Assembly (NCBI GenBank): GCA_032622095.1
Contig: CP136061.1
Coordinates: 84,976,324 to 85,040,323, forward strand
DNA: 64,000 nt
From: Siphonodentalium dalli
Lineage: Eukaryota > Mollusca > Scaphopoda > Gadilida > Siphonodentaliidae
Direction: 5' to 3'
Positions 21,353 to 49,815 of the stretch are shown here, piece after piece. A program made the position numbers and the translations under genes. The notes under the pieces are model-generated. The model was not told the origin of the DNA. It did not search any database and was given only the letters and a program-made list of their open reading frames with translations. How positions within the stretch are numbered: position 1 is the first letter of the stretch; each line of letters opens with the position of its first letter.

Positions 21353-21605
21353 GTAAACAAACATCAAAAAGTTTACAGAACCATTTGTTATAAACAAACA
21401 CTTCTAAATTATAACCTACAATGAAGGCCACCAGTCCCTTTAAAACAATTGCTGCACTGGGGATTGTTGAATTGATGCTATTTGTTATGATAAAATTCAT
21501 TGTGGTTCATTTGTACTTTTTCGCGTTACTGTTTTGTTTTATATTACATCTACGATGTTTCTATGCTGTATATTTTGTTAATTCTGTTGATGACTGTATC
21601 TGTAG
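21353..21605. other. sequence upstream of PTP exon 1 in window
   Basis: Intron or flank with a T-rich run before the acceptor. The preceding PTP exon (expected to carry DYINA..) was not found anywhere upstream in the window. Confidence 0.45.
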
Positions 21606-27700: not shown

Positions 27701-30700
27701 ACTAGTACATAAACGTATTTGTAACGTATGTACATCGTATGTGCGATTGCCTGCAGCACACACCAACTGCATAATAAGGTTTATCTATTTGTCCCACGGT
27801 CTTTATTATTGATATAAAAAGGTCCAATAGGAAAATTACACATTATAACGGATTTGTGTCCGCGATAACACCACTTATACATAGCGTGCTTTATTTGCAA
27901 CTAAAAAAACACACAATTATGCAAATTAGCAAACACCACAGTTCGCGGTTGTTATGATATAGTGGGGTTTATAAAAACAGTGTTTTCGAAAATTGTTAGA
28001 GAGCTGTGAGATTGTCTCTGCACGTTGAGTTCTTCGCAGATCTATGTTTACTGGTAATAGCTGAGCGGTCAATAACTGAGACAATGTTACCCTCGAGGGT
28101 AATAAGGTGATTTACGGCCCGACATGTGACGCACTCTCAGCCAATCAGAAGAGAGGAAAGTGGGATGAAATGTGATGAAGGATAACAAGATGTTTTATTG
28201 GTATAATAATTGACTTGCACTTGTAATACAAAGGCACAAGTTCTACTTATTTAAATGTTAATTGTGGGGAGCCCTAATAGTTAACACAGACGAGTAATTA
28301 CCACCTCCTTATTTAATATATGCCGTCCTTATTTAATTACTGCCCTCTTTATTTTGGTTTTAAGGGGGGGGGGGGGGGGGGGGTCAATGGGTCCTGGATA
28401 AAATACCTTTAAAATCATAGTTTGCTATATTGATACAGCATGACAAGCGGTTCATTTTAAATCACATTATTTAGAATTGCAACCAAAAATAAACAATGTT
28501 TTATTTCAGATATACAATAACTTGCTTCATTCTATATGTCATTGCATTATTTACTGCATATTATTTACAGCATGCTTGTCCCGCCTATTGGCCTAAGAAG
28601 ATGGATGTACCAATTGCCTTCGGGAAAACAGCAATAGTTCTGAAATCAGAAGAAAGGATGACATCTTTCACATTAAGAGAACTGACAATTTGGAAAGTGA
28701 GTACAGTGATTATGCTGTGAAAATTTCGCATGTGTAAAGTTACTGATGGCTCATATGTTCAATAATCATTGGTATTATTATTAACTTTAGAAACTTATGG
28801 GATGAGCTGGTGTCTGTTTTGTGACAATACGTTTTATAATATTTGCTGATTAGACATTGGCATAACAGTTTAATGCAATAATATTAATATTACATATGTG
28901 ATATGCAAATATGTGATTAAACAAAGCTGACAAATCAGTGATGCTGTGCAGAAAATACACGTAGTCCACACTTCAGAGTGAATGAATATAAAATATGACA
29001 TACATAATGATGAATACCATGTCTGTAAAATGATACGTATATCAATGGTTTAAGACAAACAATAACCACATGTATTTTATTCATGGATCATTTTATGTCC
29101 AATATTTGAAGGTCACCTTTATGTAAACGTGTGTTCAGTTGCAGAAAGTTCATTGACTGAAAGTAGTCAACCTCCCCAACTTATTGGCTCCATATGTTGC
29201 CTGAAATTATTTGTTCTGTCTGACAGACCAGTGATTTGACAGTAGCTGTACGCATGTCGCAGCGGAATGGCCAGCGGAATCATCGATATACAGTAATGCC
29301 CTAAGTAATCGACTTCTTAACCACAGCAGAATTATGGGTAACTTTTCAGGATTTAGTCAGAAACTAAATCCTGAAAAGTTACCCATAATTCTGCTGTGTT
29401 TAAGAAGTCGATTACTTAGGGCAATACTGTATGCGAATTCAGATGATGATGAACATTGTTTATGGGAGACATATTTCATGCCTGATCAAGTCTGCAAATA
29501 GGGTGTCTGTCATTTGCAGAATGAGGTCCCCAGAGGGTGAATTTAGTGATGCTATCCCGCACAGTGGGCTAGCATCACCAAATTCACCCTCTGTGGACCT
29601 CATTCTGCTTAGAATCATTTTCTGGGAAGTATCTATAGTCTCAAATTAACTTTGTTTTTAGTTACTTTTTTCCTTCTGGGAAGTTTCTATATCCCCTAAT
29701 TTGCAGAAGATAAAATGCATAATTGAGGTGTCCAATGGGTGAACATCACCAACTTCAACTGGGGAACTTCAATCTGATCCTAGGACTCCCATAGAAGTTG
29801 AGGCCTAAGCAGAATGAAGTCCCCAGTAGGTGAATTTAGTGATGCTAGCCCGCTGTGCGGGATAGCATCACTAAATTCACCCTCTGGGGACCTCATTCTG
29901 CAAATGACAGGCACCCTATTTGCAGGCTTGTGCCTGATGCAATAACTGGGCTTACTTTATACATAGAAATTAAAAATTATAGTATTAACCCTTCCATGAC
30001 TGGAGCTTCCTCAAATTCTGTTAAAACCATGTATCACAGCAATCTCTTATATGCCAGTATCCCATAGAGCCTCGCATATATAAGAGAATGCATTAGCCTA
30101 ACACCATATTTACTTTGACCTTGTAAACCAGTGCATTCTCATATATGCAAGGGTCCCTAAAGCACTGGCACATGATCTTTAATGCCGCACCAGTGTGGCT
30201 CCAATCATGAAATGGTTAACAGACAACCTATGTCTATATTGATTGAATAGACTCACAAAATGGCATCAATAAGTTAAGAAGATTATACTCTGATTTGTAT
30301 TTTTTTGGACGGGTTTTGTACAGAAATGAATATCTGCTCTCAAACCTGCATATTTTTGAGTGAATGAACTTTTTTACAAATTTAACTATACTCCAATAAA
30401 CTCCATGATCTTTAATGCCGCACCAGCGTGGCTCAAATCACTCAAATAAACTCCATGATCTTTAATGCCGCACCAGCGTGGCTCAAATCACTCAAATAAA
30501 CTCCATGATCTTTAATGCTGCACCAGCGTGGCTCAAATCACTCAAATAAACTCCATGATCTTTAATGCCGCACCAGCGTGGCTCAAATCACTCAAATAAA
30601 CTCCATGATCTTTAATGCTGCACCAGCGTGGCTCAAATCACTCAAATAAACTCCATGATCTTTAATGCCGCACCAGCGTGGCTCAAATCACTCAAATAAA

Positions 30701-33700
30701 CTCCATGATCTTTAATGCTGCACCAGCGTGGCTCAAATCACTCAAATAAACTCCATGATCTTTAATGCCGCACCAGCGTGGCTCAAATCACTCAAATAAA
30801 CTCCATGATCTTTAATGCCGCACCAGCGTGGCTCAAATCACTCAAATAAACTCCATGATCTTTAATGCCGCACCAGCGTGGCTCAAATCACTCAAATAAA
30901 CTCCATGATCTTTAATGCCGCACCAGCGTGGCTCAAATCACTCAAATAAACTCCATGATCTTTTACCTATTGGACGCTCATGTTAGTACTTAATTTCAAA
31001 GTATTACATTCTATCTTGGTGTAAACAGTATTTAATCCATATAATTCATAAAGTAATTACAATATAATAACAAGTTATGGTATGGAGGGGATTCGACAAC
31101 AAGCTGATAGCTCACATGTGTCCAGGGGCGCCGGAAGCATCCAAGGGCAGGAGGGGCAGAGCCTACAAAAAGGGCACTTTTCCCAGCTTTTCCGCAAAAA
31201 AGGGCATTTTCTCCGCAAACTCGGGAAAATAACCATAAATTCATTGTGGCAAAAATTCCTATTTTAATGGTATTTGTCGGTTTTTATGGCCGTTTTGTGA
31301 TAAAATTGACAAAAAATTAATATTCCTTGTGAAATTGGTGGTATTTGGACCAAAAAAGTCACATTTTGCTATAAAAACACAAGATTAAACACACAAAAAG
31401 CATTTTCTGTCTCCAGAAAAAGGGCAAGTCCTGCCCCCGCTCGCCCCCCTTGGTCAAGGGCAGGGGGGTCAGCTGCCCCCCTCTTCCGGCGCCCCTGCAT
31501 GTGTCGTCTCTGGTTATGGTGTGACTGAGTCTATCTTCGTCATTCAGTTGAATTAAATTACCTTGTGTTCTGTTCTCTTTCTCCAGGATGAAAGTAGTCG
31601 AGAAATTACTCACATTCAGTTCTTATCGGGCTCTGATTTCACCAACACGGCCAGTCTTCATGATTTCCTACTGCTGCTATCGGAGGCGAGAAGTTATCAA
31701 CAAATCAATGGGCGATTCCTGGTTCATTGCAGGTTAATTTCAATCAGCAATTTTATATATAATCAATCTACCAACAACCCATCAATATGTTGTTTTAGTG
31801 TCCATCGATGGTTGATTCCTGGTTCATTGCAGGTTATTTTCTATCAGCACATATATTTGTAAACAATATATGAACAACCCGATCAATACATGTACATGTA
31901 TATCAATACATGTACATGTATATTGTTTTACCCTTACCAAATTTCCCTTCCCTAATTTCTCATGAGTTTCTCCTGTGAAACTCATGCTAGTTTCTCACAT
32001 GAGTTTCACAGTAGTTTTTAAGATGCAAATGAGGTGGGTGGAGCTCTAATATATAAGTGTACATTACACTGTTACAGGTAATTTTTAATCAGCAATTATA
32101 GTTATTACACACTTAGCCGTGATTTATAAGTATTTCTTGATGAATTAAAAGTGATAATGTCACACCTGTGAATTACGTCACCGGTGAGAGCACGCGATTA
32201 TTGACAGTTCCGCTCTAAGCCGGGACTATTTTCACTTTCTATGGCTCAAACATGGTTGAAGTTGAACAGAAACGAACTTCTAACGATGATGCAGAAGCAG
32301 TTAATAAACCGGTATATGAAGAAGAATCTTATGTCACGTTATCATCGAAACCACTAATTTTGACTCCGATGATCCAGACGATGTCATATTCCAGTCAAAT
32401 GAACTATAAAAAATTCCATGTGAACTATAAATTTATCCAGTTCCGAGCTGAATTTCCACGTCTTGCTCTTCGAGTGTTTGTTTATGTCGATGATTAAAAT
32501 ATCGTCACTTCAAAACATAGTTTTCTACTTTTAGCACGAATTTCAAAATATCCCGTCCCAAGTGCCATGCTTGTTCGGTCAGAATAAACACAAATTCAAC
32601 AGAAAATTTCCGAAACTTTAAAAAATGAATCGCACCAAAGTGAATCAAAATAATGAGGTCAATCTGTATCGTTACATCACAATTATTTTAATTATGTGTC
32701 CTTCCGCGTAACTGCACTCGCAACTGTACGTTGGGTTCAAAATGGGAGAATCAGTTGATCTGGGCTAATTTTGTCACATCTTCTCTTTAGAATTAGCAAC
32801 TTTTAGTGGTTGATAGTGTGTAATAAACAGAATAATCTATTGGTTTCGATGATAACGTGACATAATTCACTCGGGTAGCTGGTCCTATTGGTGAAACCCT
32901 CGTTCGATCCGCTCACTGGTAGTAGGGCGGCTAAGTGTAAAATTATGGTAAAATCGTTCAGTTGGTGATACAAGCATGAAACTTGGTATGCATGATCAAT
33001 ATATATTACTAAAACAAATTGCTCGACAAACCAATCAAAATGGCCACCGGATTTACGATGGCCGTCATTTTTCAAAATGGCCACCGCATTGAACTTCTAC
33101 CCAATATATAAGATACACTAACCACTTTTCGGTTCTTTCTTTGTTACGATATATAAGTAAATCATCTCTTTAAAGGTTGCGTTATCATAAGTATGCAAAA
33201 TTATTATTATTTTTCGGAATTTGTTGATTATTTTCATATTTTTAACCTGTTTTTTTCCTCAAAATTCTTCAAAAAATATTTAGATGACTACTTTTTCAGC
33301 AACTGCAACTATTGTATAGGGCTTTTTGTGGTATAACATAGATACTTAGTTTAAGGCATGTGATTTCTTTGGTACTACTCTTCTGGAGTTATTGAATTTT
33401 GTTAAATGATATGTGTAAATAGGTTGTTAACATACATGTGCACGTTGGTATAGTGTGAGTTAAAATGTTTAAGTTATGCTTGGTGTTGATATTATTGACA
33501 ACACAATTGCTAATATTAATAGTGTATAATCGATTGTATGCATTTCATATTTGAAGTCATTAAATACTGTTGACATCACTGTCATTCCATATTTTGTACA
33601 AATCGGTCTTCCATACTGTATTGATTATTTTCTTATGCAGATGACAAATTTCTCTGAAGGAGGAGCACAAACATGGTCACGATGAGCTTATGAATTTCTC

Positions 33701-36700
33701 GGACACAGTTAGTTCTGTGCTATCTCAAGCTTGTAAATATAATTAAGTGCTACACATTGCTGGAGCAGCAGAAATCATTCGTAAACATATGCTTGAACAT
33801 CGTACCAAATTTGACAACAAGTTTGAACAAGGATGTGTACAAAGTTCTGTATCACAAAACCTTCTGCAATTTGTATGTATGATCGAGCATGGTGCTGACA
33901 TCAAGTCACAGCTTACAGTTGGTGCAACAAAGTCTGATTTAGCAATCGCGCAGTTATTACAATTCAACTGTTTCTCCTCTAGATATAAGGACAAAGCCTT
34001 TTATCATCGCCATTGTCAAGACCGTGAAACAACATTCCCTATATACACTGGCATCACTTTGTACACAAAAAACAAGGAAACGAAAACTAATTTTAAATGT
34101 TCTATGAAAACTGACTGAGTATATCTTATGATCGTGTCATGGACATCTCAAACCAGCTTGGAGAGGTTGTTGTTAAACAGTATCAAACAGATGGAGTTGT
34201 GTGTCCACCTATATTGAGAAAAGGCTTGTTCACCACATCTGCTTTGGACAATATTGACCACAACCCTACATCAACTACCAGCACATCATCTTTCCACGGG
34301 ACAAATATTTCCATGTTTCAGCATCCGCATCCAGATAATCAAGGCGAGTAGCGACCTATTGACTTCAGTTCTGGAAAAACTGCAAAAGGTCTCGTCAACA
34401 GAAGTCATTGATGGTAATCCATCAATAACGTGGTCAGCTCATCATGCGACTCAAAAGAGTGGTCATCAGTTTGATGTAGCAATAAACTCAATGTTACCTC
34501 TGTTGCGTGATCAGGCTCACTCATTAGCCATGAAATGACATTGCATGCGCAAAATTCATGAATCCGTTCAACTTCTAAACTCAGAACGGACACCGGTCAT
34601 TGGCTAAGCAGATACAGTGGCAGTGGCCAGACTGATATGGTGAGGACAAATATGTTGTTATGCTTGGAGGGTTACATCTCGAATTGGATGCTCTAAAAAT
34701 GGTTGGTTCAGTGCTTCAGGATAGCGACTGGACGAGTGCTCTCGTAGAAGCAGGTATAGCATGCCCAGGCACAGCAGATTCATTCATCAAAGCTTCACAT
34801 ATTACAAAAACCCGACAGGCATATCATATAACAGCGTGTAGTCTTTTCAAACTCATGAAATTTGCACATTCAGAATACAGCAGTCGGGATTTATCCGATG
34901 TTGATAGTACGCACTCAAATGTCAATGACTGGTGTAAAAGTAAATGTGCTGTTAGTCCACAGTTCTAGTTCTGGAGTTTGGTGCTTGACATTGAATTCAT
35001 AAAAGGAATGGGAAACCAAAATAAATGTACTTTCTATGATCTAATCAAAAGAAATTCCATTTCCATTTTTCGGTCTTCCCCAGCTGAAATCAAATCAAAG
35101 AAAACAAGTACGAAAGATGATTGCAACTCTTCTCTCGATTGTTCATTTCTTTTCAGACAAGAGAATGTGACCTTTATGACCTTTTTGCACATGAGAACCA
35201 GATTTCTCTAGCATCAATCAGTAACGATGGAAAACTTCTCAATTGATGAATATATTTGAAGCAGAGTTAACACTGCCTGAGGAAGCACCCACTGCAGATG
35301 CTGTGATAATTATAGATGGTTCTGACATAATAAATGTTCTTAAACCTAATAGTGTGAAAACATTTGATGAATATGCACAAGACAATGTCATTCCTAAAAT
35401 ACAGACATATTGCCATAAATATAAGAGAGCTGACATCATGTTTGACGTGTACAAGACAGGTAGCCGCAAACAGGAAACTAGGTCAAAGCGCGGAAAAGGG
35501 ATCAGGAGAAGGGTACCAGGATCTTGCAAAACTCTAGCAGACTGGCATAGCTTTCTTCGCGATGACAACAACAAAACAGAGCTACTAGTATTTCACTTCC
35601 TTGCTGACAGGATCGTAACTGTTAATACGGACAATGGCATTGTTGTTACCAAAGGTGAACATGTACAAAGTAACCATGAACTTGATTTGGATATATTCTT
35701 GCACCATGTATACACGAAGAGGCCGATACATGGATATTTGTGCATGCAAAACACGCAGTTATCAACCAACACAACAGCATCATAATCCAAGCCACCGACA
35801 CTGATATAGTGATTATAGCTGTAATTGTATACTCAAGTTTGAAATCATTCGGTCATAGAAAGACATTCAGAGGGATTCCGATACATGAGATTGTTTCATC
35901 AATAGGTACAACAAAATGTTATGGAATTCCCTTTTTCCATGCAATTACTGGATGTGATGTGGTATCTGCATTTCGCGGGAAACGAAAACAATCTGCATGG
36001 CAGGCATGGAATGTATTTCCAGAAGCTTTATCAGTTTTCTCCAGACTTGGCAATTCTCGAGTGTCCATCACAGACCATGACATTGCAGTATTCGAGAGAT
36101 TCGTTATACTAATGTACGACCGTTCAAATACATCCAATGGCATTAATGAAGCCAGACTAGACTTTTTTTGCACGGAAACAGAGACCATACAATGCTATTC
36201 CACCTACAAGGTCTGCGCTGTTGCAGTATGTCAAGCGAGCCGCATACGAGGCAGGGCATATATGGGGACAATCATTGGCACGTAAACCAGCTTACCCGAG
36301 TCCTGCAGATTGGGGATGGGCAGAAAATGGCAGTCACTGGGAACCATTTTGGACGGAGCTTCCACCAATTGCAAAATGTTGCAGTCAGTTGACCAAATGT
36401 GGCTGCAATAAGGCGTATAGTGGGTGATGCACATACTACCATATTGGGCTTCCATGCACCACTTTATGCAGTTGTTGCTGCCAAGTTTAAAAGACTCTAA
36501 GAACTGATAGTAATGAATGTGTGTAGCTATCCCAGTACTAACATCATATATAGTGTTTGAAATTGAATTGTTTTTCACAATTTTAAAAATGCCATTTGTG
36601 TTGAAACGAAACAAGTAATTTGTTACAATATATTGTTTTAACATACTCAGGTTGTGTTTTAATTTCAATTCAGCTTTTAGAAATGACATAAGAGCTCTTG

Positions 36701-39700
36701 TTTGAGTGATACATCGATAAAATCGGTTAACTTCTCAAAATTCGAAAACTGACATAGCTGAAAATGGCGGCCATCTTGAAAATGGTGGCCATCTTGGATT
36801 TTCGCCTGGTTTGTCGAACAATATTGTTTAGTGGCCCATACTGATCATTCGTGCCAAATTTCATGCTTGTATCACCAAGTGAACGATTTTACACTTAGCC
36901 GCCCTACTATGGGGTTTTACCAGGCCCGGCTCCCCTCATGAATTATGTCACGTAATCATCGACTCCAATTGACTACTTGCATATAGTCAATCGACGAACA
37001 ACCGAATCAATTTGTTGCTGAAGTCCAAGGATTAATGTTTGTCTTATTAAAAGATATAAATTTATTGAATAGCGATGCAGAATGAAATTTATTGAATAGC
37101 GAGGCAGAACGATATTTATTGAATAGCGATGCAGAATGAAATTTATTGAATAGCGAGGCAGAACGATATTTATTGAATAGCGAGGCAGAATGATATTCAT
37201 TGAATAGCGAGGCAGAATGGTAATTATTGAATAGCGAGGCAGAATGGTATTTATTGAATAGCGAGGCAGAATGGTATTTATTGAATAGCGAGGCAGAATG
37301 ATATTCATTGAATAGCGAGGTAGAATGATATTCATTGAATAGCGAGGCAGAATGGTATTTATTGAATAGCGAGGCAGAATGGTATTTATTGAATAGCGAG
37401 GCAGAATGGTATTTATTGAATAGCGAGGCAGAATGGTATTTATTGAATAGCGAGGCAGAATGGTATGTATTGAATAGCGAGGCAGAATGGTATTTATTGA
37501 ATAGCGATGCAGAATGTTATTTATTGAATAGCGATGCAGAATGGTATTTATTGAATAGCGAGGCAGAATGGTATTTATTGAATAGCGATGCAGAATGGTA
37601 TTTATTGAATAGCGAGGCAGAATGGTATTTATTGAATAGCGAGGCAGAATGGTATTTATTGAATAGCGATGCAGAATGGTATTTATTGAATAGCGAGGCA
37701 GAATGATATTTATTGAATAGCGAGGCAGAATGATATTCATTGAATAGCGAGGTAGAATGGTATTTATTGAATAGCGAGGCAGAATGGTATTTATTGAATA
37801 GCGAGGTAGAATGGTATTTATTGAATAGCGAGGCAGAATGGTATTTATTGAATAGCGAGGCAGAATGGTATTTATTGAATAGCGAGGCAGAATAATATTT
37901 ATTGAATAGCGAGGCAGAATAATATTTATTGAATAGCGATGCAGAATGGTATTTATTGAATAGCGAGGCAGAATGATATTTATTGAATAGCGAGGCAGAA
38001 TGGATTTTATTGAATAGCGAGGCAGAATGGTATTTATTGAATAGCGAGGCAGAATGGTATTTATTGAATAGCGAGGCAGAATGGTATTTATTGAATAGCG
38101 AGGCAGAATGATATTTATTGAATAGCGAGGTAGAATGATATTCATTGAATAGCGAGGCAGAATGGTATTTATTGAATAGCGATGCAGAACGATATTTATT
38201 GAATAGCGATGCAGAACGATATTTATTGAATAGCGATGCAGAATGTTATTTATTGAATAGCGAGGCAGAATGTTATTTATTGAATATCGAGGCAGAATGT
38301 TATTTATTGAATAGCGAGGCAGAATGTTATTTATTGAATAGCGAGGCAGAATTTTATTTATTGAATAGCGAGGCAGAATGGTATTTATTGAATAGCGAGG
38401 CAGAATGGTATTTATTGAATAGCGATGCAGAATGTTATTTATTGAATAGCGATGCAGAACGATATTTATTGAATAGCGATGCAGAACGATATTTATTGAA
38501 TAGCGATGAAGAATGTTATTTATTGAATAGCGATGCAGAATGATATTTATTGAATAGCGAGGCAGAACGATATTTATTGAATAGCGATGCAGAACGATAT
38601 TTATTGAATAGCGATGCAGAACGATATTTATTGAATAGCGATGCAGAATGTTATTTATTGAATAGCGATGCAGAATGATATTTATTGAATAACGAGGCAG
38701 AACGTTATTTATTGAATAGCGATGCAGAACGATATTTCTTGAATAGCGAGGCAGAATGATATTTATTGAATAGCAATGCAGAATGTTATTTATTGAATAG
38801 CGATGCAGAATGATATTTATTGAATAGCGAGGCAGAACGATATTTATTGAATAGCGAGGCAGAACGATATTTATTGAATAGCGATGCAGAACGATATTTA
38901 TTGAATAGCGATGCAGAATGTTATTTATTGAATAGCGATGCAGAATGATATTTATTGAATAGCGAGGCAGAATGATATTTATTTCACAAGTATTGCTTTA
39001 TTTTCTTTTTTATTTACTGCAAAATTCAGAAGATTTCAAAACGTTAAATAACAATATTTGTCTTCTTGCACAAATGCAAACTGATTATATAGACAACATC
39101 ATTGATGACGTCAGCAATAACTGAATATGTCTTCACTAAATTATGAAATATATGCTACATAAATAATACATGTTCAATTTAGTAAAGCAATAATGACCTA
39201 AATTTCCGTAGATTACAAGCTAGGCGTGCAATTAACAAAAAACAACACAGATATATGAGCAGGTTAATGCTATAACAGTCGTTTGTCATGCCACAACATA
39301 AAACTCAAAACCTATTGTTCTCGTATTAACCTAACGTCATGACAAACTTGTGCAATAGCATTAACCAGTAAACATGTTTGTGTCATTATACCCCCTTTTT
39401 AAAAAAAAAGGGGGGTATACTGTTTTGCACCTGTCCGTCCGTCCGTGCGTGCGTCCGTGAGTCCGTACGTCCGTCCGATGTCTGTTCGTGTCATAACTTG
39501 AAAAGTAGTTCTCGGATCTCAATGAAATTAGGTATGGATGTTCACTATTATGAGGACATTAAATAGAGGGTTCCATTGTTTTGTTTGGATTTTCCATTCT
39601 AGAGTTATTCATCTTTGGTTATCCGGAAATAGTGGCTTTTTGATCCGTCTGGTGTCTGTTCATGTCGTAACTTCAACAGTTGTGCTGGGATCTCAACCAA

Positions 39701-42700
39701 ATTTGGTGTGGATGTTCACAACTATGAGGACATTAAATAGAGGGTTCCATCGTTTTGTTCGGATTTTCCATTCTAGAGTTATTCATCTTTGTTTATCTTG
39801 AAATGTTGGATTTTTGGTCCATCTGTTGTCTGTTCATGTCATAACCTGAACAGTAGTGCTCGGATCTCAATGAAATTTTGTATGGATGTTCACTACTATG
39901 AGGGCATTCAATAGAGGGTTCCATCGTTTTGTTCCACTTTTCCATTCTAGAGTTATTCATCTTTGTTCATCTGGAAATGTTGGCTTTTTGGTCCGTCTGG
40001 TGTCTGTTCATGTCGTAACTTCAACAGTTGTGCTGGGATCTCAATGGAATTTGGTATAGATGTTCACTGCTATGAGGACATTCAATAGGGGGTTCCATTG
40101 TTCTGTTCTGCTTTTCCATTCTAGAGTAATTCATCTTTGTTTATCTGGAAATGTTGGCTGTTTGATCCATCCGATGTCTGTTCAGCTCATAACTTGGAAC
40201 AGTAATGCTCGGATCTCAATGAAATTTTGTATGGATGTTCACCACTATGAGGACATTTAATGGCACATTCAAATGTTTGTTTTGGTTTTTTGTTCTATAG
40301 TTATTCATCTTTGTTTATATGAAAATGCTGATTTCTGGGTCCATATGTCTGAGTATAGCCATCATAAGTTATAGATGTGCCCACACTAGGCGGTATGCCA
40401 TGAGGGGGTATGCACCGGACGACAGTCCATCTCTTGTTCGATTTATATACAAATACAGAAGAGAATGAAGACGATCGATTAGACATTTAGCCTCCTATAC
40501 CTCTATTGTGCACACTCTTAAAGATATGTCAGCATGCATTCAGAACTTACAATATAACACAAGGAACTAAGTCGGGACATATTCACACACCTAGAGAATA
40601 TGTGAGGAAAATCTCATGATGTGACTCAAGGGTCACTCATGTGCTAAATATTGATCGTTTGAAATGTATAGAACGTACAGTAATGCCCTAAATAATCGAC
40701 TCCGTAACCACAGCAGAATTATGGGTAATTTTTCAGGATTTAGTTGGAAATATGGCTTGTTGCCATTCACCTGAAAGCTCTCATTGAGCAGGGGATGGGG
40801 ACACCCCTTCCAAATCTTCTCAGGTCCATTCCCAAACCCCATATAAATAAATAAAAATTGCTTATCTTTCAGTGACGGTATTGGTGCTACTGGGGTGTTC
40901 ATTGCTGCCTGCTACCTCGTAGATCAGGGCAGGGTGGAAAATAGCGTGAATGTGTTTAGTTGTGTCGAGCAGCTACGTGGACAGCGGGCGGACATGGTTC
41001 CCAAGCTTGTAAGTGTTATTGTCCGATATAGGACCGACATGGTTCCTAAGGGTGTTCGTCATATCTCATATAGGACCGACATGGTTCCTAAGGGTGTAAG
41101 TCTTATCTCATATAGGACCGACATGGTTCCTAAGGGTGTTCGTCATATCTCATATAGGACCGACATGGTTCCTAAGGGTGTAAGTCTTATCTCATATAGG
41201 ACCGACATAGTTCCTAAGGGTGTAAGTCATATCTCATATAGGACCGACATGGTTCCTAAGGGTGTAAGTCATATCTCATATAGGACCGACATGGTACCTA
41301 AGGGTGTAAGTCATATCTCATATAGGACCGACATGGTTCCTAAGGGTGTAAGTCATACCCTTGTCATTTTATAAAGAACCAACATGGTGCCATCGCTTGT
41401 AATTCATATCATCCAATATCGGACCGAAATGGGTCCAAAGCTTGCATATCATCTCATATATGACCAACATGGTTCCTAAGGGTTTTAGTCATATAATTCC
41501 AAACCGGGTTGGCATGGACCCTTGGCATCTACTATCAAGTGGACATGGGGCCCTAGGCTTGTATGCCATATCTCCTACTACCGGGTGGACATGGGACATA
41601 TACTTTTAAGCCATATCATATATGGTGGAGATGGGCCATAGGGTTGGAAGTCATATCATATACTACCTGGTGGAGATGGCCATAGGCTTGTAAGCCATAT
41701 CATCTACTATCAGGTATGGAAACCATACATACATGTATGGTGATCTTATAAAAAATTCCAATGATTGCCATCAAGTCTTATAAAGACTGCATGTTCACAT
41801 TCTGTTTCCCAAAAGCAGTAGATTATAAAGAGCTCTCATATCAAACAGTGCATCTTTTAGTTTAACCCTTTCAGTGCCACTGATGTTAGAGCTCTTTCCA
41901 TCAATGTATCACATTATTATAATCAATAAATTTGAAAAATTATCAAGGAAATATGGGTTGATACAAAAAATGGATTTGGCACTGAAAGGGTTAAAGATCT
42001 CATATCAAACAGTGCATCTTTTAGTTTAACCCTTTCAGTGCCAGTGATGTTAGAGCTCTTTCCACCAATGTATCACATTATTATAATCAATAAAATTGAA
42101 AAATTATCAAGGAAATATGGATTCATACAAAAATTGGACTTGGCACTGAAAGGGTTAAAGATCTGACAACAAAGGACTGATATGGTTTGTAATCTTTTTA
42201 TTTCTCACACACAATCTGGTAAATTACAAAATCACTGAGTATACTATAGATAAAAGGTTAATTATCAGGAGGGCGCAGGGAGGAGTTAATTATCAGGAGG
42301 GCGCAGGGAGGAGTTAATTATCAGGAGGGCGCATGGAGGAGTTAATTATCAGGAGGGCGCAGGGAGGAGTTAATTATCAGGAGGGCGCAGAGAGGAGTTA
42401 ATTATCAGGAGGGCGCAGAGAGGAGTTAATTATCAGGAGGGCGCAGAGAGGAGTTAATTATCAGGAGGGCGCAGGGAGGAGTTAATTATCAGGAGGGCGC
42501 AGATAGGAGTTAATTATCAGGAGGGCGCAGGGAGGAGTTAATTATCAGGAGGGCGCAGAGAGGAGTTAATTATCAGGAGGACGCAGAGAGGAGTTAATTA
42601 TCAGGAGGGCGCAGAGAGGAGTTAATTATCAGAAGGTCGCAGGGAGGAGTTAATTATCAGGAGGGCGCAGAGAGGAGTTAATTATCAGGAGGGCGCAGAG

Positions 42701-45700
42701 AGGAGTTAATTATCAGGAGGGCGCAGGGAGGAGTTAATTATCAGGAGGGCGCAGGGAGGAAATAATTATCAGGAGGGCGCAGGGAGGAGTTAATTATCAG
42801 GAGGACGCAGGGAGGAGTTAATTATCAGGAGGGCGCAGGGAGGAGTTAATTATCAGGAGGGCGCAGGGAGGAGTTAATTATCAGGAGGGCGCATGGAGGA
42901 GTTAATTACCAGGAGGGCGCATGGAGGAGTTAATTATCAGGAGGGCGCAGGGAGGAGTTAATTATCAGGAGGGCACAGGGAGGAGTTAATTATCAGGAGG
43001 GCGCAGGGAGGAGTTAATTATCAGGAGGGCGCAGGGAGGAGTTAATTATCAGGAGGACGCAGAGAGGAGTTAATTATCAGGAGGGCGCAGAGAGGAGTTA
43101 ATTATCAGGAGGACGCAGAGAGGAGTTAATTATCAGGAGGGCGCAGGGAGGAGTTAATTATCAGGAGGGCGCAGGGAGGAAATAATTATCAGGAGGGCGC
43201 AGGGAGGAGTTAATTATCAGGAGGACGCAGAGAGGAGTTAATTATCAGGAGGGCGCAGGGAGGAGTTAATTATCAGGAGGGCGCAGGGAGGTGTTAATTA
43301 TCAGGAGGGCGCATGGAGGAGTTAATTATCAGGAGGGCGCATGGAGGAGTTAATTATCAGGAGGGCGCAGGGAGGAGTTAATTATCAGGAGGGCGCATGG
43401 AGGAGTTAATTATCAGGAGGGCGCAGGGAGGAGTTAATTATCAGGAGGGCGCAGGGAGGAGTTAATTATCAGGAGGGCGCAGGGAGGAGTTAATTATCAG
43501 GAGGGCGCAGGGAGGAGTTAATTATCAGGAAGGCGCAGAGAGGAGTTAATTATCAGGAGGGCGCAGGGAGGAGTTAATTATCAGGAGGTCGCAGAGAGGA
43601 GTTAATTATCAGGAGGGCGCAGGGAGGAGTTAATTATCAGGAGGGCGCAGGGAGGAGTTAATTATCAGGAGGGCGCAGGGAGGAGTTAATTATCAGGAGG
43701 GCGCAGGGAGGAGTTAATTATCAGGAGGGCGCAGGGAGGAGTTAATTATCAGGAGGGCGCAGGGAGGAGTTAATTATCAGGAGGGCGCAGGGAGGAGTTA
43801 ATTATCAGGAGGGCGCAGGGAGGAGTTAATTATCAGGAGGGCGCAGGGAGGAGTTAATTATCAGGAAGGCGCAGGGAGGAGTTAATTATCAGGAGGGCGC
43901 AGGGAGGAGTTAATTATCAGGAGGGCGCAGGGAGGAATTAATTATCAGGAGGGCGCAGGGAGGAAATAATTATCAGGAGGGTGCAGGGAGGAGTTAATTA
44001 TCAGGAGGGTGCAGGGAGGAATTAATTATGAGGAGGGCGCAGGGAGGAGTTAATTATCAGGAGGGCGCAGGGAGGAGTTAATTATCAGGAGGGCGCAGGG
44101 AGGAGTTAATTATCAGGAGGGCGCAGGGAGGAGTTAATTATCAGGAGGGCGCAGGGAGGAGTTAATTATCAGGAGGGCGCAGGGAGGAGTTAATTATCAG
44201 GAGGGCGCAGGGAGGAGTTAATTATCAGGAGGGCGCAGGGAGGAGTTAATTATCAGGAGGGCGCAGGGAGGAGTTAATTATCAGGAGGGCGCAGGGAGGA
44301 GTTAATTATCAGGAGGGCGCAGGGAGGAGTTAATTATCAGGAGGGCGCAGGGAGGAGTTAATTATCAGGAGGGCGCAGGGAGGAGTTAATTATCAGGAGG
44401 GCGCAGGGAGGAGTTAATTATCAGGAAGGCGCAGGGAGGAGTTAATTATCAGGAAGGCGCAGGGAGGAGTTAATTATCAGGAGGGCGCAGGGAGGAGTTA
44501 ATTATCAGGAGGGCGCAGGGAGGAATTAATTATCAGGAGGGCGCAGGGAGGAAATAATTATCAGGAGGGTGCAGGGAGGAGTTAATTATCAGGAGGGTGC
44601 AGGGAGGAATTAATTATGAGGAGGGCGCAGAGAGGAGTTAATTATCAGGAGGGCGCAGGGAGGAGTTAATTATCAGGAGGGTGCAGGGAGGAATTAATTA
44701 TCAGGAGGGTGCAGGGAGGAATTAATTATCAGGAGGGCGCAGGGAGGAGTTAATTATCAGGAGGGCGCAGAGAGGAGTTATTTATCAGGAGGGTGCAGGG
44801 AGGAGTTAATTATCAGGAGGGCGCAGGGAGGAGTTAATTATCAGGAGGGCGCAGGGAGGAGTTAATTATCAGGAGGGTGTAGGGAGGAGTTAATTATCAG
44901 GAGGGCGCAGGGAGGAAATAATTATCAGGAGGGCGCAGGGAGGAGTTAATTATCAGGAGGGCGCAGGGAGGAGTTAATTATCAGGAGGGCGCAGGGAGGA
45001 GTTAATTATCAGGAGGGCGCAGGGAGGAATTAATTATCAGGAGGGTGCAGGGAGGAGTTAATTAGCAGGAGGGCGCAGGGAGGAGTTAATTATCAGGAGG
45101 GCGCAGGGAGGAGTTAATTATCAGGAGGGCGCAGGGAGGAGTTAATTATCAGGAGGGTGTAGGGAGGAGTTAATTATCAGGAGGGCGCAGGGAGGAAATA
45201 ATTATCAGGAGGGCGCAGGGAGGAGTTAATTATCAGGAGGGCGCAGGGAGGAGTTAATTATCAGGAGGGCGCAGGGAGGAGTTAATTATCAGGAGGGCGC
45301 AGGGAGGAATTAATTATCAGGAGGGCGCAGGGAGGAGTTAATTATCAGGAGGGTGCAGGGGGGAAATAATTATCAGGAGGGCACAGAGAGGAGTTAATTA
45401 TCAGGAGGCCGCAGGGAGGAGTTAATTATCAGGAGGGTGCAGGGAGGAGTTAATTATCAGGAGGGTGCAGGGAGGAGTTGTGATACTCGATAAGAAATTA
45501 GACTTAATCTCTGATTATTATACCCCCTTTTTATGTTTACCCATACCATAGTATGGTAAACATAGTGTCGTTGTCCGGATTGACCACTCGTCGTTAGTCC
45601 GTCCGTCCGTCTGTCTGTCTGTCTGGCTGGCTGTCTGTCTGTCTGTAGACACTTTACGCATGGTGCGATAACTCGAACATTTTATATCTGATCGGAACCA

Positions 45701-48700: not shown

Positions 48701-49815
48701 ACGGGGAAGTCGTGTGAGATTGCCATTTAATCATATAGCGTGAATTCCAATCATAAAACCACTTTAGTGTCGGGGAAAATCGGATACATCTTCCCATTAT
48801 TTTCTTGAAATAAACACGCCAGATCGGAAGTTGAAGGGACGTAACTAGCATGACAATAAACAAGATCTAGTTTCCGGGCGGCGAACCGATAATGAACTAG
48901 GCTTCTCATTATCGGCCCGCTGTTTAGGTAACAATACGCTATTTGGAACGCCCCGAAAAACATCAATGGCCTAGAGAACGCCCTATAAAGTGGTAATAAT
49001 AATTATTGATGCATGCTTACCACCTGAGAATTAGCTTATTTGTAAACAAATAATGACCATGTATGTTAAAATGTCTGAATACATGGTTAACGACGTTATA
49101 TTGGACATGTTAATTTGTAGATCATTAAGATATCATGCGATCTGTTAGATGGAAACTCACTTATTTTGATGTGTTAATAAACTCAACCTGGACGAGTACA
49201 AGAAAAACTCATACTGTACACAACATTGTATAATGACATTTTTATTATCCATCTCTATGTTTATCCAAATTTTGGGAATACAACTTTTGTGGTTATTTTT
49301 GGTATTTGTCGGCACTTAATTCTCTATAAAAGCCTGTATTATGATCATCAGAAAGCATGATTTGGAATAGTAAACACGGAAATGAAAACATCTGCTAAAT
49401 CCAACAGTGTTGCGCGTGCATCACAATTTCACCGATTCATTTCGCAATAGAGTTAATTCGTGACATCACAGAGTCCCGATAAAAAGTCATATTGCACACT
49501 TGGGAGTCCAATATGACATTCAGGAGTCCAATATGACTTTTTCCCTGATTATCACGTGGCAGCTTTTGCCCAATCAGAAATAGTGTTAGTTAAGGGATCG
49601 ATAATAATATATATATCTGTTTCCAATTTTTTCAGGACCAGTATAAATTTCTGCATGAGGCAGTTAACAAGGCATTTATAGACAGAACGTATGACACATT
49701 TCCAAACCCAACACCGGCTACTTACTACCAAATGAAGAGGCATGAATCTGCTGACATGTATACGAATGTGACACAAGATGGAGACAATGTGTATGATGAA
49801 CTCAGTGCTGTCTGA
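21606..49815 (+). CDS. receptor-type protein tyrosine phosphatase, C-terminal part (degenerate catalytic domain)
   Basis: Five exons with matching phases encode ~226 residues covering the last two-thirds of a PTP domain and a cytoplasmic tail. Order: HLEDLWSVVWNMNCQIIVML; CPAYWPK; SREITHIQFLSGSD; VHCSDGIGATGVF (assembled across intron 3); DQYKFLHEAV; tail. PTP domains hydrolyse phosphotyrosine through Cys and Arg of CX5R and Asp of WPD. Here Cys and the Asp position remain, but Arg is Ala, WP is GS, and the Q-loop start MVQT is MVPK, so catalysis is unlikely. Best fit is a membrane-distal D2 domain or pseudophosphatase acting as a phosphotyrosine reader or regulator. Introns are 6.9, 2.9, 9.1 and 8.6 kb, full of repeats. 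No upstream exon was found, so receptor type and ligand are unknown. Clean splice sites and open exons suggest a live gene. Confidence 0.8.
21973..22159. mobile_element. CAGTAATGCC MITE, copy b
   Basis: Left end CAGTAATGCCCTAAATAA, palindromic arms with GGATTTAGTTGGAAAT and its complement; right end degraded (GGCATTACTA). In PTP intron 1 of the window. Confidence 0.8.
22333..23395. mobile_element. non-autonomous hAT-like transposon, 1063 bp
   Basis: Terminal inverted repeats TAGGGTCCTGCGAAT (22333-22347) and its exact complement (23381-23395). The flanks are a perfect 8-bp duplication AAATCGAT (22325-22332, 23396-23403), the hAT hallmark. Subterminal zones at both ends are rich in TCGAATCGAAT-type motifs, plausible transposase sites. 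No transposase frame inside. Confidence 0.9.
23482..26106 (+). repeat. array of ~150-165-bp units, copy II of composite element
   Basis: Same opening (TTAGCTCAACTTACTTTTG), GT run, unit sequence and closing phrase (AAGTTGAGCTACAGTGTC, ATTGACACTTTCATTT) as the array at 19191-21352, in the same orientation. It has about 16 units, with GGCGCGGGCTACAGG replacing AGCACGGGCTACAGG. The two arrays flank PTP exon 1 and the hAT-like element. Confidence 0.9.
26106..26287. repeat. 105-bp-spaced direct duplication
   Basis: 26106-26179 and 26211-26287 share ATTGGATTTTGATATTTTAT, GGTAAAGTACATGTATCAGT and AACAATAATGATT with few differences, separated by AT-rich sequence. Confidence 0.75.
26530..26900. repeat. 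degenerate repeat interrupted by a MITE
   Basis: CTTGACAGGCTTCTAGATTC occurs at about 26567 and 26772, with a looser third copy near 26867; GACACATACTGAAA also recurs. A CAGTAATGCC MITE (26592-26721) lies between the first two. Confidence 0.55.
26592..26721. mobile_element. CAGTAATGCC MITE, copy c (right arm mostly lost)
   Basis: CAGTAATGCCCTAAATAATC at the left, ATTTAGGGCAATACTG at the right, centre deleted. TA-like flanks. Confidence 0.75.
27091..27227. mobile_element. fold-back MITE, ~137 bp
   Basis: ACAGTTATC at the left pairs with GATAACTGT at the right. Inner arms include TGAGACACGGGGATTTGTCG and GACCTGGAATGTCACCC against their complements, with a 2-base loop. Confidence 0.8.
27228..28363. 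other. intron sequence, no gene seen
   Basis: PTP intron 1. A short palindrome TACCCTCGAGGGTA lies at 28089. No exon or full repeat family recognised. Confidence 0.4.
28364..28383. repeat. poly-G run (20 G)
   Basis: Uninterrupted G tract, also an error-prone spot for sequencing. It lies about 190 bp before PTP exon 2. Confidence 0.9.
28571..28696 (+). CDS. PTP exon 2 in window
   Basis: Acceptor TTATTTACAG. Reads HACPAYWPKK (the conserved C-x-x-YWP), then FGKTAIVLKSEERMTSFTLR and ELTIWK. Phase 0 at both ends; donor GTGAGT. A 74-codon frame running in from 28496 is intron read-through. Confidence 0.8.
28697..29288. other. intron sequence, no gene seen
   Basis: PTP intron 2 before the next MITE. 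AT-rich; nothing recognised. Confidence 0.4.
29291..29429. mobile_element. CAGTAATGCC MITE, copy d (compact perfect hairpin)
   Basis: CAGTAATGCCCTAAGTAATC to its near-exact complement, with a minimal loop at GTCAGAAACTAAA. TA duplication at 29289-29290 and 29430-29431. The central part seen in the 213-bp copy g is missing. Confidence 0.9.
29487..29930. mobile_element. nested inverted-repeat element, ~444 bp
   Basis: Outer arms (29487-29526 and 29891-29930) are complementary: GCAAATAGGGTGTCTGTCAT against ATGACAGGCACCCTATTTGC. Each side also contains its own hairpin, 29516-29608 and 29809-29901, built on GCAGAATGAGGTCC and GGTGAATTTAGTGATGCTA. It looks like one hairpin MITE duplicated head to head. 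Confidence 0.75.
30158..30205. repeat. single-copy relative of the 50-bp satellite unit
   Basis: CATGATCTTTAATGCCGCAC then CAGTGTGGCTCCAATCATGA matches the core of the 50-bp unit expanded 220 bp downstream (there CAGCGTGGCTCAAATCA). It may be the ancestral sequence. Confidence 0.7.
30391..30963. repeat. 50-bp minisatellite, ~11.5 copies
   Basis: Unit contains CTCAAATAAACTCCATGATC then TTTAATGCCGCACCAGCGTG and GCTCAAATCA. Copies are nearly identical except a CCG/CTG site that alternates in the middle of the array, pointing to expansion by two-unit steps. In PTP intron 2. Confidence 0.95.
31123..31497. mobile_element. hAT-like MITE, 375 bp
   Basis: Ends CAGGGGCGCCGGAAG and CTTCCGGCGCCCCTG with a perfect 8-bp duplication CATGTGTC on both sides (31115-31122, 31498-31505). 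GC-rich tips with GGGCA repeats; no coding frame. It sits 90 bp upstream of PTP exon 3, so it could affect the branch point or acceptor region. Confidence 0.9.
31587..31732 (+). CDS. PTP exon 3: degenerate WPD loop and VHC
   Basis: Acceptor CTTTCTCCAG. Reads DESSREITHIQFLSGSDF; canonical PTPs have HFQ(F/Y)..WPDHG, so W and P are lost. Continues SLHDFLLLLSEARSYQQING then RFLVHC, which includes the nucleophile Cys. Donor GTTAAT (weak), phase 2, so AG plus T of the next exon makes Ser. The exon end and donor are duplicated 100 bp downstream. Confidence 0.8.
31708..31907 (+). repeat. 100-bp tandem duplication of PTP exon 3 end and its donor
   Basis: 31708-31732 (end of exon 3) plus the intron start is repeated at 31808-31832 and beyond: GATTCCTGGTTCATTGCAGG occurs in both, followed by TTA-T-TTC-ATCAGCA and later AACAACCC.ATCAATA. 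A looser third relic, ACAGGTAATTTTTAATCAGC, lies near 32077. A donor used in the second copy would shift frame, as 100 is not a multiple of three. Confidence 0.85.
32110..32836. other. intron sequence with an orphan open frame
   Basis: A frame from ATG at 32252 reads MVEVEQKRTSNDDAEAVNKP then VYEEESYVTLSS and stays open to about 32497. Its acidic start looks protein-like, but no family, splice sites or partner exon were found. The rest is AT-rich. Confidence 0.3.
32837..33083 (+). repeat. left terminal inverted repeat
   Basis: Pairs with 36745-36975. Contains GTAGGGCGGCTAAGTG and a tip ending in repeated AAAATGGCCACC motifs. Arm identity is clearly below 100 percent, so the insertion is old. 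Confidence 0.75.
33640..36430 (+). pseudogene. PIN/FEN1-like nuclease family gene of a transposon, multiply broken
   Basis: Conserved blocks appear in order, with several frame changes and stops: VGATKSDLAIAQLLQFN; ETTFPIYTGITLYTK; QYQTDGVVCPPILRKGLF; IDHNPTSTT..SFHGT; (stop) YGEDKYVVMLGGLHLELDAL; GTADSFIKASHITKTRQAYH; (stop) FWSLVLDIEFIK; VIIIDGSDIINVLKP; FDVYKTGSRKQETRSKRGKG; NKTELLVFHFLADR; IIQATDTDIVIIAVIV; FHAITGCDVVSAFRGKRKQS; YVKRAAYEAGHIWGQS; CCSQLTKCGCNKAYSG. I recall this family as common multi-copy hypothetical proteins in cnidarians and molluscs. The DG.., D-x-Y, TDTD and TGCD..SFRGKRK pattern resembles PIN/FEN1 nucleases (metal-binding acids, then the GCD-Y..GIG-K loop); that link is my inference. 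At least three frameshifts and two in-frame stops make it inactive. Confidence 0.65.
36745..36975 (-). repeat. right terminal inverted repeat
   Basis: Complement of the left end. Plus strand reads GGCGGCCATCTTGAAAATGG, TTTCATGCTTGTATCACCAA, TTTACACTTAGCCGCCCTAC and TGAATTATGTCACGTAATCA. Confidence 0.75.
37056..38983. repeat. 27-bp minisatellite, ~71 copies
   Basis: Unit TATTTATTGAATAGCG plus AGGCAGAATGG. Variants at a few sites (GAG/GAT, TGG/TGA/CGA/TGT) define sub-blocks; the right third is rich in GATGCAGAACGA forms. Because 27 is a multiple of three, long frames stay open on both strands (one of 390 codons on minus, nine-residue repeats), but there is no start context or composition to support a protein. 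In PTP intron 3. Confidence 0.95.
38984..39260. other. intron spacer
   Basis: AT-rich sequence between the 27-bp array and a small MITE. Nothing recognised. Confidence 0.4.
39264..39366. mobile_element. small inverted-repeat element
   Basis: GGTTAATGCTATAACAGTCG, TTTGTCATG at the left is mirrored by CATGACAAACTTGTGCAATA, GCATTAACC at the right, around an AT-rich centre. Confidence 0.7.
39388..40445 (+). repeat. repeat element I: TATACCCCC hairpin, GTCC run, ~180-bp units
   Basis: Starts with the hairpin TATACCCCCTTTTTA.. / ..GGGGGTATA, then GTCCGTCCGTCCGTGCG. Four to five direct units follow with GATGTCTGTTC, CGTAACTTCAACAGT, GGATCTCAATGAAATT, GTATGGATGTTCAC, TATGAGGACATT and CATTCTAGAGTTATTCATCT. 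Same family as 47205-48110. Open frames are repeat artefacts. Confidence 0.85.
40678..40784. mobile_element. CAGTAATGCC MITE, copy e (one arm only)
   Basis: Only the left half remains (CAGTAATGCCCTAAATAATC to AAAGCTCTC). It ends about 90 bp upstream of PTP exon 4. Confidence 0.8.
40873..41008 (+). CDS. PTP exon 4: signature loop with Arg replaced by Ala
   Basis: Acceptor CTTATCTTTCAG. Reads (S)DGIGATGVFIAACYLVDQG, VENSVNVFSCVEQLRGQR and ADMVPKL. With exon 3 this gives HCSDGIGATG in place of HCSxGxGRTG. Donor GTAAGT, phase 0. The last ~25 bases plus the donor have been copied many times in tandem immediately downstream, and the frame stays open through eight copies to 41374. Confidence 0.85.
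41009..41372 (+). repeat. 42-bp minisatellite copying the PTP exon 4 end and splice donor
   Basis: The exon end GGACATGGTTCCCAAGCTT|GTAAGT is followed by eight units of 42 bp, each TAGGACCGACATGGTTCC, TAAGGGT|GTAAGT, then CATATCTCATA. Six units keep GTAAGT (41096, 41180, 41222, 41264, 41306, 41348); two have GTTCGT (41054, 41138). The first copy lies 45 bp on and later ones 42 bp apart, so every donor keeps phase 0 and the frame stays open. Each unit would encode 14 residues ending in DMVPKG. Confidence 0.9.
41373..41716 (+). repeat. degenerate tail of the 42-bp array
   Basis: About eight further units decay progressively: ACCAACATGGTGCC.., GGACCGAAATGGGTCC.., GGTGGACATGGGACAT.., GTGGAGATGGCCATAGGC. 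Each ends with a remnant of the donor region such as CTTGTAAGCCATATCAT. Stops appear here (from 41372). Confidence 0.75.
41866..41990. mobile_element. piggyBac-like MITE, first copy
   Basis: 125 bp; inverted ends CCCTTTCAGTGCCA / TGGCACTGAAAGGG; TTAA at 41862-41865 and 41991-41994. AT-rich centre, no coding. Confidence 0.8.
42030..42154. mobile_element. piggyBac-like MITE, second copy
   Basis: Near-identical to the first copy; TTAA at 42026-42029 and 42155-42158. Since the flank is duplicated too, it arose by segmental duplication rather than a second insertion. Confidence 0.8.
42255..45479. repeat. 28-bp minisatellite, ~115 copies
   Basis: Unit GGAGTTAATTATCAGGAGGG plus CGCAGGGA. Variants (CAGAGA, CATGGA, GTGCAG, AAATAATT, ATTATGAG) mark larger duplications: variant blocks recur exactly 420 bp (42760/43180), 588 bp (43931/44519) and 280 bp (44875/45155) apart, i.e. 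15, 21 and 10 units. No spacers, so it is not a CRISPR-like array. In PTP intron 4. Confidence 0.97.
45511..46020 (+). repeat. repeat element with hairpin and GTCC/GTCT run
   Basis: Begins TTATACCCCCTTTTTATG, then the hairpin TGTTTACCCATAC..GTATGGTAAACA, then a GTCCGTCCGTCTGTCT run, then CATAAAAGACAGATCGAGTT and GAGTTATGGCCC, which resemble the 10.0-11.2 kb element. Ends in A-rich sequence. Confidence 0.7.
46021..46640. other. intron sequence, no gene seen
   Basis: PTP intron 4. AT-rich, short frames only. Confidence 0.4.
46648..47062. repeat. tandem repeat of TTGCTTGGATATTCTTGAT units
   Basis: Short TTGCTTGGATATTCTTGAT units alternate with TCTACATGTTAATACCTGTG, TGCAGATTCTTGTC, giving a composite period of about 95 bp repeated four to five times and degrading to the right. 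Confidence 0.85.
47205..48112 (+). repeat. repeat element II of the TATACCCCC / GTCC family
   Basis: Begins AAAAAAAAGGGGGTATACTG, GTCCGTCCGTACGTCC, then the same ~180-bp direct units as 39388-40445. The last unit (GGAACAGTAATGC, TTTAATGGCACATTCAA) matches the last unit of that copy, so both derive from the same full-length element. Confidence 0.85.
48113..48561. other. intron sequence, no gene seen
   Basis: PTP intron 4; nothing recognised. Confidence 0.35.
48562..48668. mobile_element. CAGTAATGCC MITE, copy f (one arm only)
   Basis: CAGTAATGCTCTAAGTAATC to GGAAAACTCTC; left half of the palindrome only, as in copy e. Confidence 0.8.
48669..49635. other. intron sequence before PTP last exon
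   Basis: Contains a short direct repeat GAGTCCAATATGAC near 49505 and 49522. Minus-strand frames of about 70 codons near 48.7-48.9 kb have no recognisable domain. Confidence 0.4.
49636..49815 (+). CDS. PTP last exon: Q-loop helix and tyrosine tail
   Basis: Acceptor CCAATTTTTTCAG, phase 0. DQYKFLHEAVNKAF is the end of the PTP fold (second Q-loop Gln retained). The ~45-residue tail contains YTNVTQDGDNVYDELSAV before TGA (49813-49815). YTN fits the Grb2-type pYxN rule and YDEL is YxxL; the two tyrosines have ITAM-like spacing (YxxV, seven residues, YxxL). Decayed copies of this tail follow the stop. Confidence 0.8.
   Translation, partial: DQYKFLHEAVNKAFIDRTYDTFPNPTPATYYQMKRHESADMYTNVTQDGDNVYDELSAV

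Follow-up and report, generated by a model that had tools for sequence, protein, structure and literature searches.

The gene considered here raises a simple question: when the splice donor of a coding exon has been multiplied into a minisatellite, do the extra donors extend the exon, or are they the by-product of a duplicated exon-intron junction? The gene encodes a tyrosine phosphatase (PTP) domain and lies in the window, by which we mean the whole stretch of 64,000 nucleotides of Siphonodentalium dalli DNA that was analysed. A first-pass annotation had read the array as a row of donors, any of which could replace the normal one and lengthen the protein, and had offered decoy U1 sites as an alternative.

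Four exons of this PTP-like gene, a to d, were placed on the forward strand with AG/GT borders. Exon a (28571..28696, 126 nt) has an open frame between such borders and lies within an inferred protein that matches Pfam PF00102, and exon b (31587..31732, 146 nt), whose donor at 31733 reads GTTAAT, has an AG/GT-bordered counterpart in two paralogues, B and C, which are described below. Exon c (40873..41008, 136 nt), the template of the array, encodes DGIGATGVF...RADMVPKL in an open frame, has relatives elsewhere in the genome and ends at the normal donor GTAAGT (41009..41014), a border that is the same in the paralogues. Exon d (49636..49815), beginning with DQYKFLHEAV..., is the last coding exon, includes the stop codon and is matched in both array-bearing paralogues; the intron between c and d (41009-49635) measures 8.6 kb. 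Exon c had earlier been numbered exon 4, a count that the upstream gene model is too incomplete to confirm. Upstream exons were sought by motif only, in the open frames of the first 28.7 kb of the window, where one PTP-like frame was found, starting at 21494.

The inferred product, taken as a second-domain-like PTP domain, matches PF00102 with an E-value of 4.2e-30 over profile positions 83-233 of 234, and it also matches receptor-type phosphatases in the PDB. DQYKF stands directly after the DMVPKL junction, at the place to which the first-pass annotation assigned the Q-loop. An active PTP is recognised by CX5R and WPD. Aligned with the first domain of PTPRS, the inferred product has CSDGIGA for CSAGVGR and GSD for WPD, with alanine at the position of the catalytic arginine; because of these replacements, the domain has probably lost catalysis. 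Exons b to d are constrained, with a dS of 0.219 and a dN of 0.052 against paralogue C; against paralogue B there are 4 + 5 changes (dS 0.041, dN 0.014). Paralogue C is without the exon d stop codon at the equivalent place, and the part of C that was compared yielded no counterpart of exon a.

Tandem Repeats Finder reports the array at 40991-41357, as 8.7 copies of period 42 with 92% matches. Cut into units, it consists in the window gene of a young layer (41032..41367) of eight 42-bp copies of the junction, with the unit GACATGGTTCCTAAGGGT GTAAGTCATATC, followed by an old, decayed layer (41379..41711), traced by a unit-profile search and as repeat families, with eight profile matches, one of which carries GTAAG. 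GTAAGT stands in six of the eight young copies, at 41096, 41180, 41222, 41264, 41306 and 41348, that is, +87, +171, +213, +255, +297 and +339 from the donor at 41009 and in phase 0 every time; copies 1 and 3 have GTTCGT instead, and in both copy 2 and copy 4 the donor is followed by CTT. No stop interrupts the frame between 40847 and a TAA at 41372-41374, so that all six array GTAAGT sites precede the first stop. The layout described in the first-pass annotation (six GTAAGT in eight copies of 42 bp, at phase-0 distances and in an open frame) is thus confirmed by Tandem Repeats Finder, unit cutting and a frame check. Copies 1-2 and 3-4 look like the products of one 84-bp duplication, and the eight copies are therefore not independent samples. 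The first-pass annotation was silent on this pairing, on the old layer and on a second duplicated junction of the gene, described below.

Two further properties of the array were considered and set aside. Its translation scores as Pfam BHD_3 (E 8.5e-9; 36.1 bits against a curated cut-off of 27), but no single stretch passes alone, the best being 13 residues, and the score is taken as an effect of summed repeats. Small GT...AG introns within the array, of 20 + 42k bases as derived from the unit, would shift the frame every time.

The source of the unit is indicated by an array-free paralogue, L014 (C2:70.917 Mb). Its exon ends in GACATGGTTCCGAAGCTT, nearly identical to the unit, and its intron starts with GTAAGTCATATCAT, the first 12 bases of which equal those of the unit. 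A profile of the unit aligns with 35 bases of L014, of which 14 lie in the intron (E 5.4e-10), while at the other seven array-free loci tested it matches only up to GTAAGT (six loci) or not at all (one). Eight old copies and four young ones went into this profile, as did the junction of the window gene itself, which differs in its intron part; only the intron part of the L014 match is independent of the exon. Within the window, the 24-base exon-end/donor junction is matched five times with at most 3 mismatches, by the real junction and four array copies, against no match in 100 shuffles. Since the array-free L014 shares both the exon end and the first 12 intron bases of the unit, it is well supported by sequence comparison that the unit was founded by copying the exon end together with its donor and the beginning of the intron, across a real exon-intron boundary. 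The first-pass annotation had named the exon end and donor as the template; L014, the profile search and the junction match bear this out, and add the intron side to it.

How widely the unit is spread was examined in the whole genome (2.23 Gb in 9 contigs). A DNA search in which very common words were skipped found it, among the best candidates, at three loci, each with the PTP exon in question. Besides the window gene, these are paralogue B (C1:369.9 kb), with 7 young and 8 old copies, and paralogue C (C1:91.107 Mb, minus strand), with one young-type copy and about 10 degenerate ones, three of them weak. The protein sequence of exon c has 76 genomic matches at E <= 0.001, many of them in tandem arrays on C3; 30 of these loci were retrieved and 17 exon copies examined, of which three have the array. 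Among the 14 further loci, none has a duplicate of its own donor junction within ~1.5 kb at the score of the array loci (at least 29); L016, L018, L019 and L024 score 22-23, values reached by 3 to 6 of 200 shuffles, and the remaining loci score lower. Two loci on C3 are organised in another way: in L040 (C3:298.7035-298.7105 Mb) and L041 (C3:300.416-300.423 Mb) the homologous PTP exon and its acceptor TTGTCTTTCAG are tandemly repeated, mostly with a period of 167, the acceptor occurring 15 times in the former and 13 times in the latter. The first three copies of each have GAGAAC and no GT donor after the exon, and these arrays look like a pseudo-exon satellite.

A tree of 14 exon sequences, built without three of the checked loci, groups the window copy, B and C in one clade (support 0.994); L014 is its neighbour, with a weak support of 0.526. 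Inside the clade the tree joins B and C (0.759), contrary to the longer colinear DNA, which joins the window copy and B; the exon is short. The colinearity with B extends over ~26.3-63.5 kb of the window, broken by large gaps into pieces that are 79 to 97.5% identical; noncoding stretches adjoining or inside the old array differ by 0.9, 2.1 and 4.1%, and upstream of the colinear part only one 171-bp piece of 72.5% identity was found in the 60 kb of the B locus compared. Given this limited extent and a distance of ~84.6 Mb on the same contig, B is unlikely to be a second haplotype of the window gene.

All three genes share a short odd copy, GTTGGCATGG...CATCTACTATC, and the old layer therefore predates their split. 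Judged by their sequences, the three paralogues share an old decayed set, and two of them hold 7 and 8 near-identical 42-bp copies where the third has one. The change of copy number that the first-pass annotation had envisaged is indeed seen between two close gene copies, window and B, which differ by one 42-bp unit (8 and 7). Compared across paralogues with one sequence per locus, the young layer is thus unstable in length, with 8, 7 and 1 copies.

Other repeats have also changed between the window and B. Two minisatellites, at 37060-38983 (27-bp, ~71 copies) and 42257-45479 (28-bp, ~115 copies), occupy only ~230 and ~255 bp in B, a change of length that far exceeds that of the 42-bp array. 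A stretch of ~4 kb with several long open frames (32918-36911), perhaps a mobile element insertion, is absent at the equivalent place in B. An interspersed repeat of ~107 bp at 40676-40782, one copy of which ends ~90 nt upstream of exon c, recurs at about 18.7, 22.0, 26.6, 29.3, 48.6, 53.3 and 55.8 kb in both orientations, with some inverted pairs.

The array is, in our judgement, probably a minisatellite that began when an exon-intron junction was duplicated in tandem, within a single clade of the expanded PTP-like family, and its donors are probably not under selection. The founding unit would have taken in ~24 bases of the exon, its donor and the adjoining part of the intron. A single copy of this kind may have given rise to the young copies, although the third gene may instead have lost some, and slippage or unequal exchange would drive the amplification. 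Recency and homogenisation, rather than selection, would then keep GTAAGT in most young copies. Most splicing of the transcript would take place at 41009, with perhaps some leakage to array donors, and the remaining array would be removed together with the intron. Use of an array donor would extend the domain in frame, which may be tolerated rather than selected, because the domain has probably lost catalysis.

The pattern of change within the units agrees with donors that are not maintained. The count of deviations from consensus covered 13 young units, from the window copy and from B; the final unit of each was omitted, as it passes at its 3' end into dissimilar sequence. The donor columns deviate in 6 of 78 cells and the others in 8 of 468 (Fisher p 0.008, for cells that are not independent); with the last units kept, the counts are 6 of 90 and 23 of 540. 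Counted as distinct changes, there are 3 in the six donor columns and 6 in the other 36. As the donor columns deviate no less than the others, the donors are not the protected part of the unit, and these deviations give no signal of selection on them. At the 1.7% rate of the other columns, recency alone would leave about 7 of 8 hexamers intact, and 6 of 8 (window) and 5 of 7 (B) are observed. GTAAG is present in 1 of 8 old copies in the window gene, 2 of 8 in B and 3 of 10 in C. Of the coding changes in the array, 5 are synonymous, against 3 expected, and 9 are non-synonymous, against 11, which is a slight synonymous excess (p 0.20). Maintenance of donors or frame is consequently not upheld: the donor columns are unspared, seven of the eight old copies in the window are without GTAAG, the synonymous excess is within chance, and the intron-derived part of the unit is free of stops in 64% of random draws with the composition of this intron. 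Nothing in the DNA points to a purpose for which the extra splice signals would be retained.

A second donor junction of the same gene has been duplicated as well. The junction of exon b and its duplicate together span 31704-31880; the duplicate itself (31804..31880, 77 nt, forward strand), found by a repeat search, a junction scan and a frame check, is 82% identical at a spacing of 100 nt and has a second donor, GTTATT, at 31833, and a third piece of 34 nt lies at 32072-32105. The frame stays open up to this second donor, but exon c would then start with a stop, the donor breaking the frame because 100 is not a multiple of three. The duplicate scores 62 in the window and 58 in B, which none of 200 shuffles reaches (maximum 25, against 62 in the window), and the junction scan did not detect it in paralogue C. 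Two of the three donor junctions tested (a, b and c) are thus duplicated, against none of the four acceptors, whose best score of 22 is reached by 6 of 200 shuffles. A duplication that is blind to the frame is what would be expected of junction duplication as a mutational habit. As evidence of an excess at junctions these counts are no more than suggestive, because local repeats abound in the window: of 600 random 42-mers, taken from the window outside the listed tandem arrays, 14 have a copy scoring at least 38 within 2.5 kb downstream (at least 2 of these 14 being the exon b duplication itself) and 4 within 200 nt, and at a score of 62 the numbers are 4 and 0. With local copies so frequent among random 42-mers, a single duplicated junction (38 for exon c, 62 for exon b) is only moderately unusual.

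Three observations go against so passive a reading: the computed U1 pairing is no weaker at the array donors, every young GTAAG before the stop is in phase 0, and there is the slight synonymous excess. The first two also favour the view that the array donors are in real use, giving a longer exon c with 29 to 113 residues before DQYKF, and that copy number tunes this length. Pairing with U1 over the nine donor bases comes to -4.9 kcal/mol for the normal donor, -5.9 for the array GTAAGT, -3.7 for GTTCGT and -11.6 for the full consensus, whereas plain matches to CAG/GTAAGT number 7 of 9 for the normal donor and 6 of 9 for the array donors. The core donor sequences do not clearly favour 41009, which is the chief argument for use of the array donors; with scores as simple as these the normal donor and its copies can hardly be told apart, so that such use is physically plausible. 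The phase-0 sites before the stop number six in the window gene, six in B and one in C, and the donors of a minisatellite in human IFI6 (6-16) are reported to be used (PMC4526556). Against this stand the unspared donor columns, and an open frame in phase 0 is not rare by chance, a period of 42 and an open frame being expected together about one time in five (~1/3 x 0.64, or ~0.2). Stops occur in the older layer, which in C has off-phase GTAAG sites as well. Nor was a retrocopy found that would reveal the splice form: in a search of the whole genome with the joined protein, none of the best 80 matches spans exons c and d, and the longest match across their border (residues 1-59, C1:63.96 Mb) is to an exon followed by GTAAGT and intron-like sequence. 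We therefore consider real use of the array donors unlikely, and give only a small chance to their mattering for protein length. In its fullest form, the proposal would make the array a copy-number-dependent exon extender, whose in-phase donors compete with the normal one and through which a pseudophosphatase domain grows or shrinks by a 14-residue repeat with each gain or loss of 42 bp, leading to paralogue-specific families of isoforms; this we regard as a little less likely again.

The copies might alternatively be decoys or a reserve for U1, with a slowing, shielding or buffering effect on splicing or on early polyadenylation in the 8.6-kb intron. The clustering of GTAAGT with pairing no weaker than that of the normal donor, and the length of the intron, would suit such a role, but the donor columns are without constraint, and the corresponding intron of paralogue C is ~1.7 kb long with one array GTAAGT before the stop, which makes a decoy function very improbable. 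That the array is an unrelated minisatellite or part of a transposon, in a window rich in other minisatellites, with a chance likeness to the exon end, is hardly credible in view of the junction match that no shuffle reaches, the intron part of the unit that is the intron start of array-free L014, and the association with a PTP exon at all three loci among the best candidates of the genome search.

The best-matching known system is that of the lancelet 'mirages', minisatellite-like tandem duplications of exon-intron boundaries described for Adh3, the globins BflGb6 and BflGb9, troponin C and PGBD5 (PMC3087553; PMC3902484). They are reported not to disturb regular splicing (PMC3087553; PMC3902484 for Adh and troponin C). 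Like mirages, as these papers describe them, the present array has units that span a boundary, splice signals that are common but not universal among the copies (GTAAGT in 6 of 8 young ones, GTAAG in 1 of 8 old ones), an unstable copy number, and inner copies that are homogenised where the edge copies are not (PMC3087553, PMC3902484). Unlike them, it lies in a PTP-like paralogue, its period of 42 is in phase, and array-free paralogues coexist with those of one and of 7-8 copies.

Two human cases are also instructive. IFI6 is the precedent opposite to the mirages: there, too, the units of a minisatellite carry donor sites of an exon, and for two units downstream actual use as donors is reported (PMC4526556), whereas donor use in the window array is putative. 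Minisatellites at exon-intron boundaries of recent human paralogues are described as changing splicing (PMC2812944). Like the tandem repeats of human segmental duplications in that report, the present array has expanded in recent, often intrachromosomal paralogues, and coding units there are mostly of in-frame length; the changed gene structure is documented by transcripts in the human case (PMC2812944). Minisatellites of abalone, earthworm and nematode (PMC6905558, PMC12783039, PMC4039745) and a further paper (PMC2572611) were considered and, as far as these sources describe them, either are not close parallels or only cite the 1995 IFI6 paper. No paper in the literature searched combines a minisatellite, a tyrosine phosphatase and a splice donor. 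The window array is thus a new case of a kind already known.

It has been proposed that new introns and exon extensions can arise from duplicated splice junctions (PMC3087553, PMC2812944). The genome of S. dalli presents the stages side by side, from an array-free paralogue to one young copy, seven and eight, together with a decayed layer and a junction duplicate that breaks the frame. Taken together, these stages offer a convenient way to see whether the splicing machinery ignores neighbouring donors of equal quality or makes use of them. If the array donors were used, copy number would directly set the length of the protein.
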